From Myxococcaceae bacterium (GTDB lineage: Bacteria > Myxococcota > Myxococcia > Myxococcales > Myxococcaceae): a stretch of 64,000 bases of DNA. Below, piece by piece: positions 6,504 to 15,983 of the stretch (the stretch's first letter is position 1; each line of letters starts with the position of its first letter). The notes under the pieces were generated by a model. The model was given only the letters and a program-made list of their open reading frames with translations, was not told the DNA's origin and ran no database searches. The position numbers and the translations under genes are program-made. The stretch is from assembly GCA_016793095.1 (NCBI GenBank), contig JAEUJQ010000064.1, forward strand, positions 1 through 64,000. The letters are read 5' to 3'.

Positions 6504-6821
6504 ATGGAAGATACGGTCAAGCGGTTGGCAAAGGTGCTGGGAGCCACCGGGCTCGAGAGCCTCGGTGGTGACGCTCGCTTCGCGGTGGATGCGGCCGATG
6601 GCTCCCGGCTGAAGGTCAGCATGGAGGCGCACCAGCAGCGCTTCATGGCGGTGCTCTGCGACGCGAAGGGCGTCACTCGCGCCGACATCGACGTCGCGCC
6701 CGTGCAGAAGGTGACCGAGGACGCGGCGTTCCCCGGCCGCATCACGCTGCACCTGGGCACGCTGCTCATCCAGCTCGACTCGAAGCCGACGCTGGCGATT
6801 GAGGTCCTCAGCGCGAAGTGA
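6504..6821 (+). CDS. hypothetical small cytoplasmic protein
   Basis: This is a 105-residue acidic protein beginning MEDTVKRLAKVLGATGLESL, with no signal peptide and no membrane helix. The pattern of alternating hydrophobic residues (RFAVDAADGSRLKVSMEA, GRITLHLGTLLIQLDSKP) suggests a small alpha/beta fold. I do not recognise a family. Its last 14 bases overlap the convergent GH3-family gene. Confidence 0.6.
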   Translation: MEDTVKRLAKVLGATGLESLGGDARFAVDAADGSRLKVSMEAHQQRFMAVLCDAKGVTRADIDVAPVQKVTEDAAFPGRITLHLGTLLIQLDSKPTLAIEVLSAK

Positions 6822-8382
6822 GGCCGAGCCGCGCCTCCCAGCCGACGGCGGGGTCGAAGGCGGTGGGCTTGATGTCTCCCAGCGTGAGGCCGCGAGCCTG
6901 CATGGCGGCGAGCCACCGGGCGCGGCCATCGTGAACCTTCAGCACGTGGACCGGCCCCAGCTGGCCCAGGTCGCGGCAGTACCGGTAGTGGAACTCGTCG
7001 CGCAGGCGCTCCTCCACGTCGGCGGCGAGCGCTGAGCAGCGGCCCTCGTCGAGCGGCGCGTCGAGGAACAACGAGTACCGCGGCGTCGGCGTGGCGTCGG
7101 ACGGCGCGAGCAGGGCGAAGGCGTGTGGCACGTCGCGCAGGGCCTCGGCGAGCACCCGCTCCACCACCACGGCGGACAGCTTCTCGCCCCGCAGGTCGCT
7201 CGTCCTGTCGAGGCGACCCTCGAAGCGCAGCATGGGCAGCGCTCGCCAGTGGCCGACACAGCGGACGACGTCCGGCAGGCGGTAGCGCACGAGCCCGCCG
7301 CGGGTGGTGAGGAGCGGCGAGTACGAAGCGCCCTCGCGCAGCTCGTCCACGAACCGGGTGGGGCGTCCCTCGTCCTCCAGGGCCTCGAACTCGAGCAGGT
7401 GGCTGGTGACGGCAGCGACGGGCGCAGGCTGGCCCCAGAGCGGGAACGACACCACGCCCTCGGTCGCGAGCAGCCCTTTGCCCTGCAGCGGCGTCGTCGG
7501 GAAGAACCGCCGCAGCGCAGGGACGGCGGAGGCTGCCCAGGCGTCGGTCCAGCACGAGATGAGCGCGAGGGAGGGCCAGAGCGCGGCGCCGTCGAGGCCT
7601 CCATGGGCGTCGAAGGCCCGCTCCAGGGCGGTTCGCCGCTGAGGTGACACCGACGGCGCCAGGGACTGCCATCGCGTGGCGAGCGCCTCGAGGAGCAGCG
7701 TGAGGAACGACGGGTTCCACACGCTGATGAAGCCGAGGTCCCCGGCCTCGATGAGGCGCAGCAACGTCTGCTCTCGCCAGGCCTCCATGGTGGGCGCCTG
7801 CGCGACCTGCGAGGGCACCACCATGAGCTTCGCCATCGCGAAGCGGGTGGCGCGGCCGAAGTACTCGGTGTCGTCGTCGAGGCCCACGCGCAGACCTGCC
7901 GGCGTCGTCTCGGGCGCGCGCGCGGCGGGAGAGAGCGACCAGTACTGCCGCGTGCGGAACATCGCCGGGAAGTGACGGAACAGGTCGTCGAGCCACGGGC
8001 CGGTCGCCGCCGAGAAGTCGTCGAGCAGGCCCTGGGTGTACGGCACGCGCTTGGGCAGCGCGGTGGAGCCGCTGGTGCGTTGAAAGACGAGCACCGGCTC
8101 GCTCGTCAGCACGCGCCGCTCACCGGCGGCGATGCGCTCGACCCACGGCGCGACGTCCTCCCACGTCGTCACCGGCGCGCGGCGGCGCAGGTCGTCGAGG
8201 GAGTACACGCTCCCCAGGCCGATGGCCGTCCCGTAGGCCGTGTCCTTCGCTGAGCGCTGCAGGCGGGCGAACCAGGCCTCCTGGGCCCGGCGCGGGCGTC
8301 GCGAGGCCTCCTCGAACGTGCGCGCGGTGGACCGGCGAGAGAGAGCCCAGGCCGCCGTGAGCGTGAGGGTGAGCGGACGCAC
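6808..8382 (-). CDS. GH3 family protein (acyl-adenylate-forming superfamily)
   Basis: This is a 524-residue protein from GTG 8382. It has the GH3 layout: an N-terminal ATP-binding motif FQRTSGSTALPKRVPYT (about residue 103), an aromatic-rich central part, LLATEGVVSFPL (the second adenylate motif), and LVRYRLPDVVRCVGHW, typical of GH3 proteins. Plant GH3 enzymes join amino acids to auxin or jasmonate through an adenylate. Bacterial members occur in myxobacteria and others with unknown acyl substrates. No partner biosynthesis gene lies beside it. The substrate is unknown. Confidence 0.85.
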   Translation of the reverse strand: MRPLTLTLTAAWALSRRSTARTFEEASRRPRRAQEAWFARLQRSAKDTAYGTAIGLGSVYSLDDLRRRAPVTTWEDVAPWVERIAAGERRVLTSEPVLVFQRTSGSTALPKRVPYTQGLLDDFSAATGPWLDDLFRHFPAMFRTRQYWSLSPAARAPETTPAGLRVGLDDDTEYFGRATRFAMAKLMVVPSQVAQAPTMEAWREQTLLRLIEAGDLGFISVWNPSFLTLLLEALATRWQSLAPSVSPQRRTALERAFDAHGGLDGAALWPSLALISCWTDAWAASAVPALRRFFPTTPLQGKGLLATEGVVSFPLWGQPAPVAAVTSHLLEFEALEDEGRPTRFVDELREGASYSPLLTTRGGLVRYRLPDVVRCVGHWRALPMLRFEGRLDRTSDLRGEKLSAVVVERVLAEALRDVPHAFALLAPSDATPTPRYSLFLDAPLDEGRCSALAADVEERLRDEFHYRYCRDLGQLGPVHVLKVHDGRARWLAAMQARGLTLGDIKPTAFDPAVGWEARLGLTSR

Positions 8383-10429: not shown

Positions 10430-10616
10430 CGAGCCGCTCCTATCCTTCGCGGCGTCGTTCGAGCGACCTCGCCTCTCGCGCGGCGCGGTGCGCTGCGTCT
10501 CCGTGCGAACCGACGGCGGGACCCTCGAGGTCGTCCCACCGCGCCGCTGAACAGGCCGCGAGGCGTTCCTCCTGCACCCCATCGATGCTCCTTCTGTCGC
10601 GACGACGGGCGCTGAG

Positions 10617-10622
10617 TAGACT
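10617..10622 (+). promoter_or_regulatory. possible -10 element for a leaderless transcript
   Basis: TAGACT ends 6 bases before the GTG start at 10629, and no Shine-Dalgarno sequence lies in between. The spacing fits a -10 box with transcription starting at or near the start codon. Confidence 0.4.
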
Positions 10623-10628
10623 CCGCGC

Positions 10629-12983
10629 GTGCTCGCGCTCCTGACGGCCCTCTCGCTGACCGCCGCGCCCGCTCCGCCGCGCAACGTCTACGTCGGCGTC
10701 TACCTGAGCGACGTCTCGGACTTCGACCTGAAGGCCGGCCGGTTCAAAGCCGACCTCACCGTCTGGGTGAAGTGGCAGGGAGACGGCGCGGTTCCCCAGG
10801 TCGTCTACGAGAACGCCGAGGTGGACTCGAAGGACGAGCTCGGCGCGGAAGACGAGGCCGGCTGGCACTCGGTGAAGTGGCGGGTGCAGGGCACCTTCCG
10901 GGGTGAGTTCCCGGTGCACGACTTCCCCTTCGACCGGCAGACGCTGCCCATCACCTTCGGCCTCGACGTCACCGACGGCGTGCTGGTGCCGGACCTCGCC
11001 TCGAGCGGCATGAGCCCCGCGTTCTCCGTGACGGGCTGGCAGTACGAGCCGTACTTCCACGCCCGCAGCCTCGAGCGCAGCTACTCGTCCGACCTCGGCA
11101 GCGTCGCCCATGAGGGCGCGTCGGCGAAGAAGGGCCTCACCACCTACTCCGTCGAGGTCTCGCGGCCTTTCGGGCCCTACCTCATCAAGTTCGCCCTGCC
11201 GCTCGCGCTCATCCTGCTCGTCGCCCTGCTCGCCCTCTTCCTGCCGCCAGAGCGCCTCGACGTGCGCTCGGCCATGGGCATCACCGGCCTGCTGTCGTGC
11301 ATCGCCTTCCACTACACGCAGGCCGACACACTGCCCGCCGTCACCTACCTCGTGGCGGCCGACAAGCTGTTCCTCGCCGCCTACGTCTTCGTCACCGTGA
11401 CGCTCGTCTTGAGCGTGTTGTCCTTCCGCCTCGCGGATGGGCGCCTTGCGCTGGCCCAGCGCGCAGACCGGCTGGGCGCGTGGCTGCTGCCTGTCGCGAC
11501 CATCACCGGCCTCGCGTGGATGGTGTGGGGGGCGCTCGCCGTCGACGCCGAGCCCGAGCCGACGGCGCCGGTGAACCCGCACGCGAGCCAGCCGCTGCTG
11601 CGCATCGCGGCGGCGACGCTGGACACCATGGGCGGCTCGCTCCCACAACGGCGCGCGGCGCTGGTGACCCGCCGGGCCGACGGCAGCCGCCGGGCCGACC
11701 TCGTCGTCGAGGCGCCTGCCATGACGAACGGGCTGGTGCGCCTGATGCCCGACGGCGGCATGCGCATTCGCTGGCGCCTGCGCGCGGACGCGACCTGGAG
11801 CGACGGCGCCCGCATCACCGCCGACGACCTGCTCTTCTCGCTCGCGGCGCAGCCGGACCTGCTGCGCACCCGGGTGGAGCGCGTCGACGACCGCACCGTC
11901 GACGTGACGTACGGCGACCGGCGCGCCGAATGGCTCATGGGCTTCACCGTGTACCCGAGGAGCGCCGCTGCCCTCGGCACCGACGGCGGCCGCGACGCCC
12001 TCAACGTCGCGCACAACGAGGGCCGGCTCGCGACGAGCGGCCCGTACGCGGCCGGCGAGTACGTGCAGGGAAAGTCGTTGGTGCTGCTGCGCAACGAGCG
12101 CACGGTGGTGATGAAGCCCACCTTCGAGCGCGTCGAGGTGACGGCGGTGGCGCCGCTCGACGCCGCGAAGGCGCTCCTCGCGGGTGAGGTCGATGTGGTG
12201 CCCTCGCTCACGCCCGACGCCTACGAAGCGCTGCGGGACGCGAAGGGCGTGCGCGTGCTGGAGCAGCCCGGCGACCTGCTCTGGGTGCTGGTGCCGCAGC
12301 TCGCGTCACCGCCGTGGAACACCGTGGAGGCCCGGCGCGCGCTGCTGGCGGCCCTCGACCGCGACGCGCTGGTGAAGTCCCTCGCGCCCGCGCCTGCCCA
12401 GGTGGCCTCGGGCTGGCTGCCGGAGCCCCCGCGCGTCGTGCCCGCGGGTCCCACCCTGAAGGACCTGGGGCTCACCGGCGCCGTCGTCACGCTCGAGGTG
12501 CAGACCATCAAGTCGAAAGACGCGACCCACGCCGTCCTGGCGCAGCACCTCGTCGACGACCTCACGACGGCGGGCCTCGAGGTGAAGCTCGTCGAGCGCG
12601 GGGGCACCGAGCTGCGGCAGGCGGTGACGAACGGCACGGTGGCGGGCCTCGCCCTGCTGAGCCGCGACGCCGCCGAGGCCATGCGCTTCATGAACGTGCC
12701 GGGCGAGGCGGGCCGCACCGGGCTCGACCGCCCCTACGGCGCGCACTTCGACGCCGTCATGGTGGAGAAGTACGCCCGCGCGAAGGGCTCGCTCTACCGC
12801 GAGCGCCGGCGCGCCCTCGAGCTCGAGCTGCAGGCGGCGTGGTTCGAGCGCCTGCCCATGCTGCCGCTCGTGCTGACGTCGCGGCTGGCGGCGGTGCGCG
12901 AGGGCCTCGAGGGGCCGGACTGGGGCGAGGCCGACTCGCTGTTCTGGAACGTCTCGGAGTGGCGCTTCACCGGGCCGCCCTGA
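10629..12983 (+). CDS. pentameric ligand-gated ion channel fused to a family 5 solute-binding domain
   Basis: 784 residues from GTG 10629. Residues 1-16 are a signal peptide. Residues 18-180 are a pLGIC ligand-binding beta sandwich with the Pro-loop motif FPFDRQ (99-104). Then come SRPFGPYLIKFALPLA leading into TM1 (about 183-205), the pore helix TM2 (about 213-235, SAMGITGLLSCIAFHYTQ), TM3 (about 237-266) and TM4 (about 282-304). After a short Pro/Glu linker, residues 320-784 form an SBP_bac_5 (oligopeptide/nickel ABC-type) binding domain. Its signature is IRWRLRADATWSDGARITAD (about 380-399), followed by SGPYAAGEY. In pLGICs both termini are outside, so the binding domain would sit in the periplasm beside the channel's own ligand domain. 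No ABC transporter gene is near. Gating by a peptide-like solute is an inference. Confidence 0.85.
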   Translation: MLALLTALSLTAAPAPPRNVYVGVYLSDVSDFDLKAGRFKADLTVWVKWQGDGAVPQVVYENAEVDSKDELGAEDEAGWHSVKWRVQGTFRGEFPVHDFPFDRQTLPITFGLDVTDGVLVPDLASSGMSPAFSVTGWQYEPYFHARSLERSYSSDLGSVAHEGASAKKGLTTYSVEVSRPFGPYLIKFALPLALILLVALLALFLPPERLDVRSAMGITGLLSCIAFHYTQADTLPAVTYLVAADKLFLAAYVFVTVTLVLSVLSFRLADGRLALAQRADRLGAWLLPVATITGLAWMVWGALAVDAEPEPTAPVNPHASQPLLRIAAATLDTMGGSLPQRRAALVTRRADGSRRADLVVEAPAMTNGLVRLMPDGGMRIRWRLRADATWSDGARITADDLLFSLAAQPDLLRTRVERVDDRTVDVTYGDRRAEWLMGFTVYPRSAAALGTDGGRDALNVAHNEGRLATSGPYAAGEYVQGKSLVLLRNERTVVMKPTFERVEVTAVAPLDAAKALLAGEVDVVPSLTPDAYEALRDAKGVRVLEQPGDLLWVLVPQLASPPWNTVEARRALLAALDRDALVKSLAPAPAQVASGWLPEPPRVVPAGPTLKDLGLTGAVVTLEVQTIKSKDATHAVLAQHLVDDLTTAGLEVKLVERGGTELRQAVTNGTVAGLALLSRDAAEAMRFMNVPGEAGRTGLDRPYGAHFDAVMVEKYARAKGSLYRERRRALELELQAAWFERLPMLPLVLTSRLAAVREGLEGPDWGEADSLFWNVSEWRFTGPP

Positions 12984-13105: not shown

Positions 13106-14344
13106 TCAGCGAGCGATGTCGGGCGCGCGGTACACCGACGCGACGCCTCCCGCCCAGGCCGCGAGCCACGCGCCGTCACGCGAGAAGACGAGGTCTGACA
13201 CGCGGTCGTGCCCCAGCTGCTCGGGGTCGGGCAGCCGCGCCGGCCGGCCCGGGCCGCTCGCGTCATGCCACTCGAGGGCGTTGCGGCCGACGGCGAGCAG
13301 CGACGAGCCGGGGCGCGGCGACCAGGCGCAGGCGTATGCCGTGGCGAGCCGGTCCTTCCGCCACTCGTCCTCGAAGCGCCAGCGCTCGGCGCCGTCAGGC
13401 AACGCCACGCAGAGAGGCCCCTGCGCGTACTCCCAGATGAGCCACAGCGCGTCCTCCCCGGCGGTGAAGCCGAAGCGGTCGAGCTTCTTCGGCGGCTCCA
13501 GCAGGGCCCGGCGCTCACCGGTCGCGACGTCGAAGACCTCGAGCTCGTTCGAGGTGTCGTGCCGCGCGTCGTCGTGCCCGTACACGAGGCCGCGGCTCGG
13601 GCAGTAGAACGCGATGAGCGCACCCGAGGGCGAGAGCGCGACGCCGCGGCACTCGGTGGTGGGGGAGCGGGTCGAGAACGTCTGCACCACCTCGCCCCGC
13701 TCGAGGTCCACCACCTTCACGAGGTCGTCCGCGTCGGCGATGGCGCAGCGGCGGCGCGCGAGGTCCATCGACGGGCGCACGACGAAGGGGTTGAAGCGCG
13801 AGGTGCGGTGCTGGTCCCACGAGGCGAGGCGGCGCTCCTTGCCGGACTCGAGGTCGACCAGCACCGTGTCGCTGTTGATGAGCACCACGAGGCGCGTGGC
13901 GTCAGCGTCGAAGCGCGCCGCGTGCACGAACGTCTGCTGCGAGCCGGCGTCGCGGGTGAAGACGACGCGCTCGGCGCCGGTGTCGAGGTCGACCACGGTG
14001 ACGCGACAGCCGTGGGCCTGCTCGCCGACGTCGGCGCAGACGAGGAGGCGCCCGTCTGCCGAGAGGTCGAGCACCCCGCCGCCGCCACCACCCGCCGAGG
14101 CGCCCTCGAAGCGCAGCCCGCCCGGCTTCACGTCGGCCGCGGGGGTGAGGTGGACGAAGCCCTCGCCGCGCTTCGTCCGCAGGCGCTTCTCGAAGGCGCG
14201 GGCGGCGTCGGCTGGCGAGGGGTGCTCCTTCACGTACTCGCGGGGCACGCCCTTGCGGTAGCGCGTCTCGACGACGGCGGCGCCGCGCAGCTCGATGCCG
14301 AACTGCTGGGTGGGGTCGGTGCGCTGCACCATCGTCCGTCGCAT
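13106..14344 (-). CDS. WGR-like domain plus WD40-type beta-propeller protein
   Basis: This is a 412-residue protein without signal peptide. The first 70 residues (QRTDPTQQFGIELRGAAVVE, then KRLRTKRGEGFVHLTP) resemble a WGR domain, the small nucleic-acid-associated fold known from PARPs and bacterial MolR-like proteins. The rest consists of repeated blades such as LDLSADGRLLVCADVG, VDLDTGAERVVF and VFDVATGERRALLEPP, which fit a seven-bladed propeller. An oligo-Gly linker (about residues 85-91) divides the two. It converges with the ion-channel fusion gene. It is probably a cytoplasmic sensor or scaffold; the partner is unknown. Confidence 0.65.
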   Translation of the reverse strand: MRRTMVQRTDPTQQFGIELRGAAVVETRYRKGVPREYVKEHPSPADAARAFEKRLRTKRGEGFVHLTPAADVKPGGLRFEGASAGGGGGGVLDLSADGRLLVCADVGEQAHGCRVTVVDLDTGAERVVFTRDAGSQQTFVHAARFDADATRLVVLINSDTVLVDLESGKERRLASWDQHRTSRFNPFVVRPSMDLARRRCAIADADDLVKVVDLERGEVVQTFSTRSPTTECRGVALSPSGALIAFYCPSRGLVYGHDDARHDTSNELEVFDVATGERRALLEPPKKLDRFGFTAGEDALWLIWEYAQGPLCVALPDGAERWRFEDEWRKDRLATAYACAWSPRPGSSLLAVGRNALEWHDASGPGRPARLPDPEQLGHDRVSDLVFSRDGAWLAAWAGGVASVYRAPDIAR

Positions 14345-14420: not shown

Positions 14421-15983
14421 ATGACCATCATCCTCGAGTGGCTCAACCTCCTCGTGCGCTGGGTGCACGTGCTCGCCGCCATCATGTGGGTCGGCGACTC
14501 CTTCCTCTTCATGTGGCTCGACAGCCACCTCTCTCAGCCGACGAAGCCGCGTGACGGCGCTGTCGTCGGCGAGCTGTGGATGACGCACTCGGGCGGCTTC
14601 TACGAGGTGGTGAAGCGCAAGGCGCTCTCGCGCGACGAGCTGCCGTCGCAGCTCTACTGGTTCAAGTGGGAGAGCTACACGACGTGGCTGTCGGGCTTCG
14701 CGCTGCTGTGTGTCGTCTACTACGGCTCGGGGGCGTCGCTGCTGCTCGACCCGAGCGTGAGCGACCTGACGCGCACCGAGGCGACGCTCATCAGCCTCGG
14801 CCTCCTGCCGGCCGCCTTCCTCGTCTACGAGGGCCTGTGGGCGACGCCGCTCGCGAAGGACAACCGGCTCTTCGCCGTGGTGGGCCTCGCCCTCGTCGGC
14901 GCGCTCGGGTACTGGCTCACGCACCACTTCTCGGGGCGCGGCGCCTTCCTGCAGCTCGGCGCCACCATCGGCACGGTGATGGCGGCGAACGTCTTCTTCC
15001 GCATCATCCCCGCGCAGCGGCACATGCTCGCGGCGACGAAGGCCGGCACGCCGGTCGACACGTCCTTCGGCCTGCGCGCGAAGGGCCGCTCGGTGCACAA
15101 CCACTACCTCACCCTGCCGGTCGTCTTCACCATGCTGTCGAACCACTTCCCGATGACGTACGGGCACCAGCACGCGTGGCTCGTGGTGGTGGTGTTCTTC
15201 GTCTTCGGCATGTCGCTGAAGTACGCGATGAACTTCCGCGCGAAGACGCACCCGGTGGTGTTCGCGTCGCTCGTGGGCTCGCTGGGCGTCTTCGTCTTCA
15301 TGACGATGCCGAAGAAGGAGGCGCTGCCGGGGCTCGAGCAGTACACGAGCGCGAAGCCCGTCTCGTTCGCGACGGTGAGCGCCATCGTGCAGGCGCGCTG
15401 CGTGTCCTGCCACGCCACGAAGCCGGGGAGCGCGATGTTCACCGCGCCGCCGCAGGGCATCGTGCTCGAGACGAAGGAGCAGGTGGCCCAGCACGCCGAG
15501 CGCATCTACCTGCGCGCGGTCGCGACGAAGACGATGCCGCTCGGCAACCTCACCGCCATCACCCAGGAGGAGCGCGACCTGCTCGGCGCGTGGATGGCGC
15601 AGGGCGCGAACGTCGAGGCGCCCGGGCCGGTGTCGCTGCCCTCGCTGTCACCTCCGCCGGCCGCGGTTGGGAGCCCAGACGTGCCGCCGACGCCCGAGGC
15701 GAAGGCGACCACGCGCTTCGAGACGGTGTGCGCGACGTGTCACGGCCTCGACGGGAAGGCCGAGAGCCCTGCGGCCGCCGCGTTGACGCCGAAGCCGCGC
15801 GCGTACACCGACGCGGAGTGGCAGCGGAGCGTCACCGACGAGCACCTCGCGAAGGTCATCGTCGAGGGAGGGCCAGCCGTCGGAAAGAGCCCGCTCATGC
15901 CGGCGAACCCGGACCTCGCGACGCAGCCCGAGGTGGTGCAGGCGCTGGTGAAGAAGGTGCGCTCGTTCTCGCCGCCGCAGTGA
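14421..15983 (+). CDS. puuD: PuuD-like urate oxidase (membrane) with two cytochrome c motifs
   Basis: 520 residues. The N-terminal 300 residues have about eight membrane helices and match the PuuD (DUF989) urate hydroxylase family (LNLLVRWVHVLAAIMWVGDS, NHYLTLPVVFTMLSNHFPM). PuuD proteins oxidise urate to 5-hydroxyisourate and pass electrons to a C-terminal cytochrome c. That domain is present with CVSCH at 327-331 and the family signature TKTMPLGNLTAIT. Unusually, a further class I cytochrome c follows a Pro/Ser linker, with CATCH at 437-441 and a distal Met candidate in SPLMPAN. GGAG precedes the start at 14408. No other purine degradation gene is nearby. The symbol refers to the family, not a proven activity. 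Confidence 0.75.
   Translation: MTIILEWLNLLVRWVHVLAAIMWVGDSFLFMWLDSHLSQPTKPRDGAVVGELWMTHSGGFYEVVKRKALSRDELPSQLYWFKWESYTTWLSGFALLCVVYYGSGASLLLDPSVSDLTRTEATLISLGLLPAAFLVYEGLWATPLAKDNRLFAVVGLALVGALGYWLTHHFSGRGAFLQLGATIGTVMAANVFFRIIPAQRHMLAATKAGTPVDTSFGLRAKGRSVHNHYLTLPVVFTMLSNHFPMTYGHQHAWLVVVVFFVFGMSLKYAMNFRAKTHPVVFASLVGSLGVFVFMTMPKKEALPGLEQYTSAKPVSFATVSAIVQARCVSCHATKPGSAMFTAPPQGIVLETKEQVAQHAERIYLRAVATKTMPLGNLTAITQEERDLLGAWMAQGANVEAPGPVSLPSLSPPPAAVGSPDVPPTPEAKATTRFETVCATCHGLDGKAESPAAAALTPKPRAYTDAEWQRSVTDEHLAKVIVEGGPAVGKSPLMPANPDLATQPEVVQALVKKVRSFSPPQ

Follow-up and report, generated by a model that had tools for sequence, protein, structure and literature searches.

The window analysed here, a stretch of 64,000 nucleotides of a Myxococcaceae bacterium, encodes a protein in which a complete pentameric ligand-gated ion channel (pLGIC) is followed, in a single open frame, by a complete solute-binding protein (SBP) of the SBP_bac_5 family. 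The arrangement of these two known families is undescribed in the open-access literature found here, and it is real and conserved. An earlier note on this DNA had claimed an uninterrupted frame of 784 residues at 10629-12983; its coordinates, strand and length are exact, and the channel elements it listed (signal peptide, beta sandwich, FPFDRQ Pro-loop and four helices) are found both in the sequence and in the structure model. The frame starts with GTG and has 784 codons. The order of the modules is a signal peptide, a GLIC-like pLGIC (residues 17-303), a linker of 19 residues and an SBP_bac_5 domain (residues 322-784), and the features are as follows:

10430..10628, no strand: upstream gap of 199 bp (sequence)
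10629..12983, + strand: pLGIC-SBP_bac_5 fusion gene, 784 aa, GTG start, with an in-frame stop 3 codons earlier
10629..10676, + strand: predicted signal peptide, residues 1-16 (assigned by eye, no signal-peptide program)
10677..11168, + strand: periplasmic/extracellular beta-sandwich ligand-binding domain (ECD) of the pLGIC, residues 17-180 (profiles, model, fold comparison)
10923..10940, + strand: Pro-loop FPFDRQ, residues 99-104, of which F99, P100, F101, D102 and Q104 are invariant among the fusions (sequence)
11169..11537, + strand: four-helix channel domain (TMD), M1 181-202, M2 210-231, M3 238-269, M4 273-303 (sequence and model)
11538..11594, + strand: Pro/acidic linker, residues 304-322, variable in sequence and near-constant in spacing
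11595..12980, + strand: complete SBP_bac_5 domain (cluster C, PBP-II fold), residues 323-784 (profile and fold)
12663..12668, + strand: R679-D680 of the SBP half (alignment with DppA and OppA)

The signal peptide has no basic N-region, and there is no alternative in-frame start codon upstream. No sigma-70-like promoter match was found in the 199-bp gap. Since this gap precedes the gene and the next gene downstream (13106-14344) lies on the opposite strand, i.e. is convergent, the fusion gene is probably transcribed alone or as the last gene of its unit.

The channel half was identified by several methods. The NCBIfam profile LGIC_1 matches residues 96-290 (E 2.6e-10), and a comparison with solved-structure sequences puts a GLIC/GABA-A chimera first (residues 96-318, E 1e-12). 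The Neur_chan_memb profile (PF02932) matches residues 190-263 of the window protein with 19.4 bits, below the Pfam cut-off of 28.1, which is a curated detection threshold and not a biological criterion; all 11 fusion members match this profile, the best with an E-value of 1.6e-7. For an AlphaFold model of the channel alone, GLIC is the structure that matches best over the full length (Z 18.4, residues 13-303), and the large rmsd, about 9.5 A, may reflect a hinge between the two channel domains of the model. In this model the beta-sandwich ECD is followed by four transmembrane helices in a GLIC-like fold.

The sequence motifs agree with this assignment. Of the Pro-loop (FPFD) only the proline is absolutely conserved in the superfamily (PMC4795631), and this P100 is present in 11/11 fusions. 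In M2, numbered by our alignment to GLIC, the basic residue at 0' (R213) and the leucine at 9' (L222) are invariant in the fusions; both are features of the majority of pLGICs without being universal (PMC4795631). Arg179 before M1 is also invariant, and conservation of the ECD is strong, some of its W, F and loop-C-region residues being invariant. Position -2' is an acid (D211, replaced by E in a few members), and by comparison with known channels this acid just before 0' makes cation selectivity plausible, so that the pore is probably cation-selective. Pentameric assembly is presumed. The 11' His of GLIC is Cys in nearly all members, and the position of E35, the main proton sensor of GLIC, is an invariant glycine (G37) in the fusions; proton gating as in GLIC is therefore judged unlikely.

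The topology of pLGICs would put the SBP on the periplasmic side, and the net positive charge of the M3-M4 loop and the linker after M4, with three acids and no basic residue, agree with this; the earlier note's argument that the C-terminus lies outside is supported.

The second half is an SBP by profile and by fold. The Pfam profile SBP_bac_5 matches residues 375-659 with 109.2 bits against a cut-off of 32.4 (E 3e-31) and is matched by all 11 fusion members. Although the profile match ends at residue 659, fold comparison reveals a complete domain over residues 319-782, as the note had claimed: in the comparison with the two-lobed fold of Aapf, 426 of 477 residues are aligned, covering residues 322-781 of the AlphaFold model (Z 27). 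Other complete cluster-C proteins that match (Z about 25-27) include binders of sialic acid, opines, glutathione and dipeptides. The ligands of the top neighbours range from a signalling amide, sialic acid and opines to glutathione, peptides and nickel, and since these neighbours are tied in Z they single out no ligand. AccA-type binding proteins are found among solved-structure sequences as matches to residues 380-596 and 469-596. The N-terminal part of the fused SBP is about 10-20 residues shorter than that of stand-alone relatives.

A candidate ligand site can be proposed from the alignments. In two of them D680 is aligned with DppA Asp408 (D436 of the precursor) and OppA Asp419, the residue that in these peptide binders holds the amino group of the ligand. 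This position is Asp in 9/11 fusions and E and S in the remaining two, and the preceding R679 is invariant. The title of PDB entry 8z1z names D436 and R383 of DppA as paired mutated residues; for the second of these, the carboxylate-anchoring Arg (R383 of the precursor, mature R355), the alignments offer no clear equivalent in the fused SBP. As a lead rather than a proof, we speculate that the ligand is possibly a solute bearing an amino group, e.g. a peptide or an amino-acid derivative.

The two halves are joined by a linker (residues 304-322) that is Pro-rich and poorly conserved (31% mean pairwise identity). The AlphaFold2 model, computed from the window protein and ten relatives, has a signal helix, a beta-sandwich, four helices, a poorly ordered linker of low pLDDT and an alpha/beta domain, in that order; with its modest confidence (mean pLDDT 72.7, pTM 0.49) the monomer model does not fix the relative placement of the domains. 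Indirect support for a tethered position comes from the spacing between D280, just before the M4 core, and L324 in the first SBP strand, which varies from 43 to 47 residues among 14 gene copies, eleven of which have exactly 45. Despite the divergence of the linker, the length of the tether thus looks constrained.

Of 96 genomes of the family to which the window belongs, 13 carry the fusion; they are spread over 6 of its 26 genera and have 15 gene copies between them. When the search was widened to the order (145 genomes in all) and the phylum (195 in all), no further carrier was found. Ten copies are complete, uninterrupted frames: the window copy, a further copy on contig C13 of the same genome, two copies in genome G024 and one each in G003, G021, G023, G036, G043 and G056. 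Of the incomplete ones, those of G006 and G010 run off the end of a contig, those of G004 and G007 are apparently divided between contigs, and that of G050 is frameshifted. A scan of contigs with the fusion alignment returned 11 loci, all in myxobacterial metagenome-assembled genomes (MAGs), while the same scan with a single fusion protein as query found nothing; a plasmid search found only pLGICs of Azospirillum, which match the channel part alone at 25% identity. The carriers are assigned to Archangium sp., Archangiaceae, Myxococcaceae and Myxococcales. Within the Myxococcota, all fusions that these searches found come from MAGs of a single family (Myxococcaceae/Archangium relatives). Its absence from 83 of the 96 family genomes indicates that the gene is dispensable.

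Maximum-likelihood trees of each half unite all fusions (support 100/99 and 99/99) and agree in their well-supported forks, and the simplest history is therefore that the halves were fused once and have since been inherited, and also duplicated, together. The pLGICs of the same family that carry no fusion end within about ten residues of M4, and the fused SBPs are nearest to stand-alone, lipoprotein-like SBPs of other Myxococcota; this position in the tree does not support an origin from the SBPs that are fused to methyl-accepting chemotaxis proteins (MCPs) in the same genomes. Both halves are under purifying selection, with dN/dS values of 0.20-0.34 for the SBP, 0.06-0.29 for the ECD and 0.07-0.19 for the TMD. 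Among the globular parts it is the SBP that varies most (mean pairwise identity between fusions 52% vs about 67% for the channel), which would suit divergent ligands but also a relaxed domain. Divergent second copies are located at L031:5326-7731 (-) in the window genome (G000, 45%) and at L032:911-3406 (-) in G024 (36%), and such pairs in one genome hint at receptors for different ligands. The frameshifted copy of G050 (L039:5075-7415) and a decayed remnant in G002 (L087:2728-3061) suggest that the gene is occasionally lost.

The genomic surroundings hold no sign of an ABC permease. A permease domain (BPD_transp_1, PF00528) was not found on either fusion contig of the window genome, C74 (83 kb) or C13 (70 kb), in accordance with the earlier note; a nearby permease is usual, if not universal, for cluster-C SBPs, and an ordinary SBP on contig C85 of this genome is adjoined by two. 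The genome encodes five SBP_bac_5 proteins, two of them fused to a pLGIC and one to an MCP, and three pLGICs, of which two are fused. A conserved operon partner could be dismissed, as none extends beyond the closest relatives of the window: the G006 locus shares with it two upstream genes and a GH3 gene. The latter (window 6811-8382, - strand) encodes a bacterial GH3-family protein, relatives of which are plant acyl-acid amido synthetases, and is conserved beside the G006 fusion (L048, 71%). Another gene, at window 14421-15983 (+), combines a membrane domain of the urate oxidase N-terminal type with a cytochrome c domain (PF06181 and PF13442). Elsewhere, a fusion-free pLGIC is directly followed by a gene for an OprB-family carbohydrate-selective porin (L050:496-2796, +), and a 61% similar stretch beside the pLGIC of another genome (L038:3335-5523) makes a pLGIC-porin operon possible.

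Taking these data together, we consider it somewhat better than an even bet that a solute in the periplasm is sensed by the tethered SBP, which in response alters the gating of an inner-membrane channel, probably one selective for cations. The protein would be a single-chain sensory channel of, presumably, five subunits, each consisting of a GLIC-type module and a cluster-C SBP that was recruited from ABC transport to sensing and is held by the short, near-constant linker at the periplasmic end of M4. Binding of the solute would close the two SBP lobes, the closed SBP might then dock on, or pull at, the periphery of the channel (the outer face of the ECD, or M4), and the altered contacts would shift the open probability of the pore, so that the solute level becomes an ion flux. 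The earlier suggestion that the SBP gates the channel or delivers ligand to it, with five binders round one pore, is plausible. More tentatively, and with rather less confidence than an even chance, we speculate that the pLGIC is allosterically driven from its C-terminus by the closure of five tethered, ABC-free SBPs acting via M4 or the ECD periphery; the open-access literature we found describes no such route of gating for the superfamily.

Other readings were weighed against solute sensing by the tethered SBP. One is that the SBP serves to concentrate the ligand, i.e. it binds the solute and passes it on to the classical site between ECDs, which then gates the pore; a role of this kind was proposed by Tasneem et al. 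(PMC549065) for fused or operonic PBP domains, and the strong conservation of the ECD would fit it. It is known that SBPs pass ligands to ABC permeases, but they usually bind tightly and release the ligand only when docked to the permease, and a tether of near-constant length fits a fixed placement better than free delivery, so we regard such a hand-over as unlikely. We hold it equally unlikely that the SBP fold has lost the ability to bind a small solute and acts as an anchor, cap or partner-binding module (for peptidoglycan, lipid or protein, for example) of a channel that is gated otherwise. The lack of a recognisable DppA-type carboxylate anchor, the shortened N-terminal part, a dN/dS above that of the channel and the presence of LpqW, an SBP-fold protein, among the structural matches would all be compatible with such an accessory, but the entire two-lobed fold is kept, many residues are invariant and the anchoring Asp is mostly retained.

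It is also conceivable that the linker is cleaved and the SBP set free in the periplasm, the gene product being a polyprotein of two separately acting proteins. The Pro-rich, variable linker of low pLDDT might be read in this way; however, the conserved spacing between M4 and the SBP weakens the idea, no second signal peptide or lipobox was seen by eye at the start of the SBP half of the window protein, and no ABC permease was found on the contig, which makes cleavage very improbable. Finally, an artefact (an assembly join, a hidden frameshift or a pseudogene) could be suspected because the titled fusion-bearing records are all MAGs and because the G050 copy is frameshifted and the G002 remnant decayed. 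But continuous frames in independent assemblies, the congruent trees of the two halves and dN/dS values well below 1 rule out a hidden frameshift or join; a chance origin of the observation is excluded, and an artefact of any kind has next to no probability. The weak points named in the earlier note, a break in the frame, an insignificant SBP_bac_5 match or a lack of the fusion in all relatives, did not materialise.

The fusion can be compared with several known systems. GLIC and other simple bacterial pLGICs share its channel fold and motifs, but the known ones have no domain beyond M4. Tasneem et al. (PMC549065) described pLGICs of bacteria in which a PBP-I or MCP-N/Cache domain precedes the channel, as well as PBP-II genes that share a predicted operon with the channel gene. 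A binding protein is thus coupled with the channel in both cases, but theirs is an N-terminal PBP-I domain or the product of a separate PBP-II gene, whereas here a cluster-C PBP-II domain is at the C-terminus and the channel starts right after the signal peptide, with no PBP-I domain before it. In effect, the operonic pairing with PBP-II (PMC549065) recurs here as a fusion, placed at the other end of the channel. DeCLIC likewise adds a periplasmic module to a pLGIC, namely a flexible N-terminal domain that modulates gating (PMC9897478, PMC12664993), but it consists of two jelly-roll lobes and not of a C-terminal SBP. These cases bear out the statement that extra domains of known pLGICs are mostly N-terminal (PMC549065, PMC9897478, PMC12664993). 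The open-access literature yielded no account of a pLGIC with a binding protein at its C-terminus, in agreement with the note, which knew of no description of this order.

By profile and fold the SBP half belongs to the family of DppA, OppA, NikA, AccA, AgaA and Aapf (SBP_bac_5/cluster C), from which it differs in that it is tethered to a channel and has no signal or lipobox of its own and no linked permease. Ionotropic glutamate receptors are channels gated by a PBP-II-type domain, but their tetrameric, K-channel-like pore is inserted into that domain and is unrelated to the pore of the fusion, so the analogy is one of working principle only. A C-terminal SBP_bac_5 domain on a signalling protein of the same bacterial family is known from McpK of M. 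xanthus, described as an MCP with an annotated SBP domain (PMC3945109); the pLGIC-fused SBPs form a separate clade, and the output of the MCPs is that of a chemoreceptor. Most genomes of the family encode MCP-type proteins of about 1,050 aa that end in an SBP_bac_5 domain, e.g. at L036:2369-5437 (+) (G000:C76), L091, L090 and L092, and two N-terminal membrane helices lead one to expect their SBP in the cytoplasm, an odd place for it.

Jaiteh et al. (2016, PMC4795631), whose survey discarded terminal segments, stated that the biological role of pLGICs in unicellular organisms was not known in a single case, and named domain architectures as a way forward. A channel with its own SBP gives access to the natural stimulus of bacterial pLGICs through a soluble domain that can be screened, lets one test how a binding protein couples to the pore from the M4 end, and is a template for engineered solute-gated channels. 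Bacterial pLGICs are cousins of the neurotransmitter receptors of nerve cells, and the fusion makes the stimulus that they sense directly testable.
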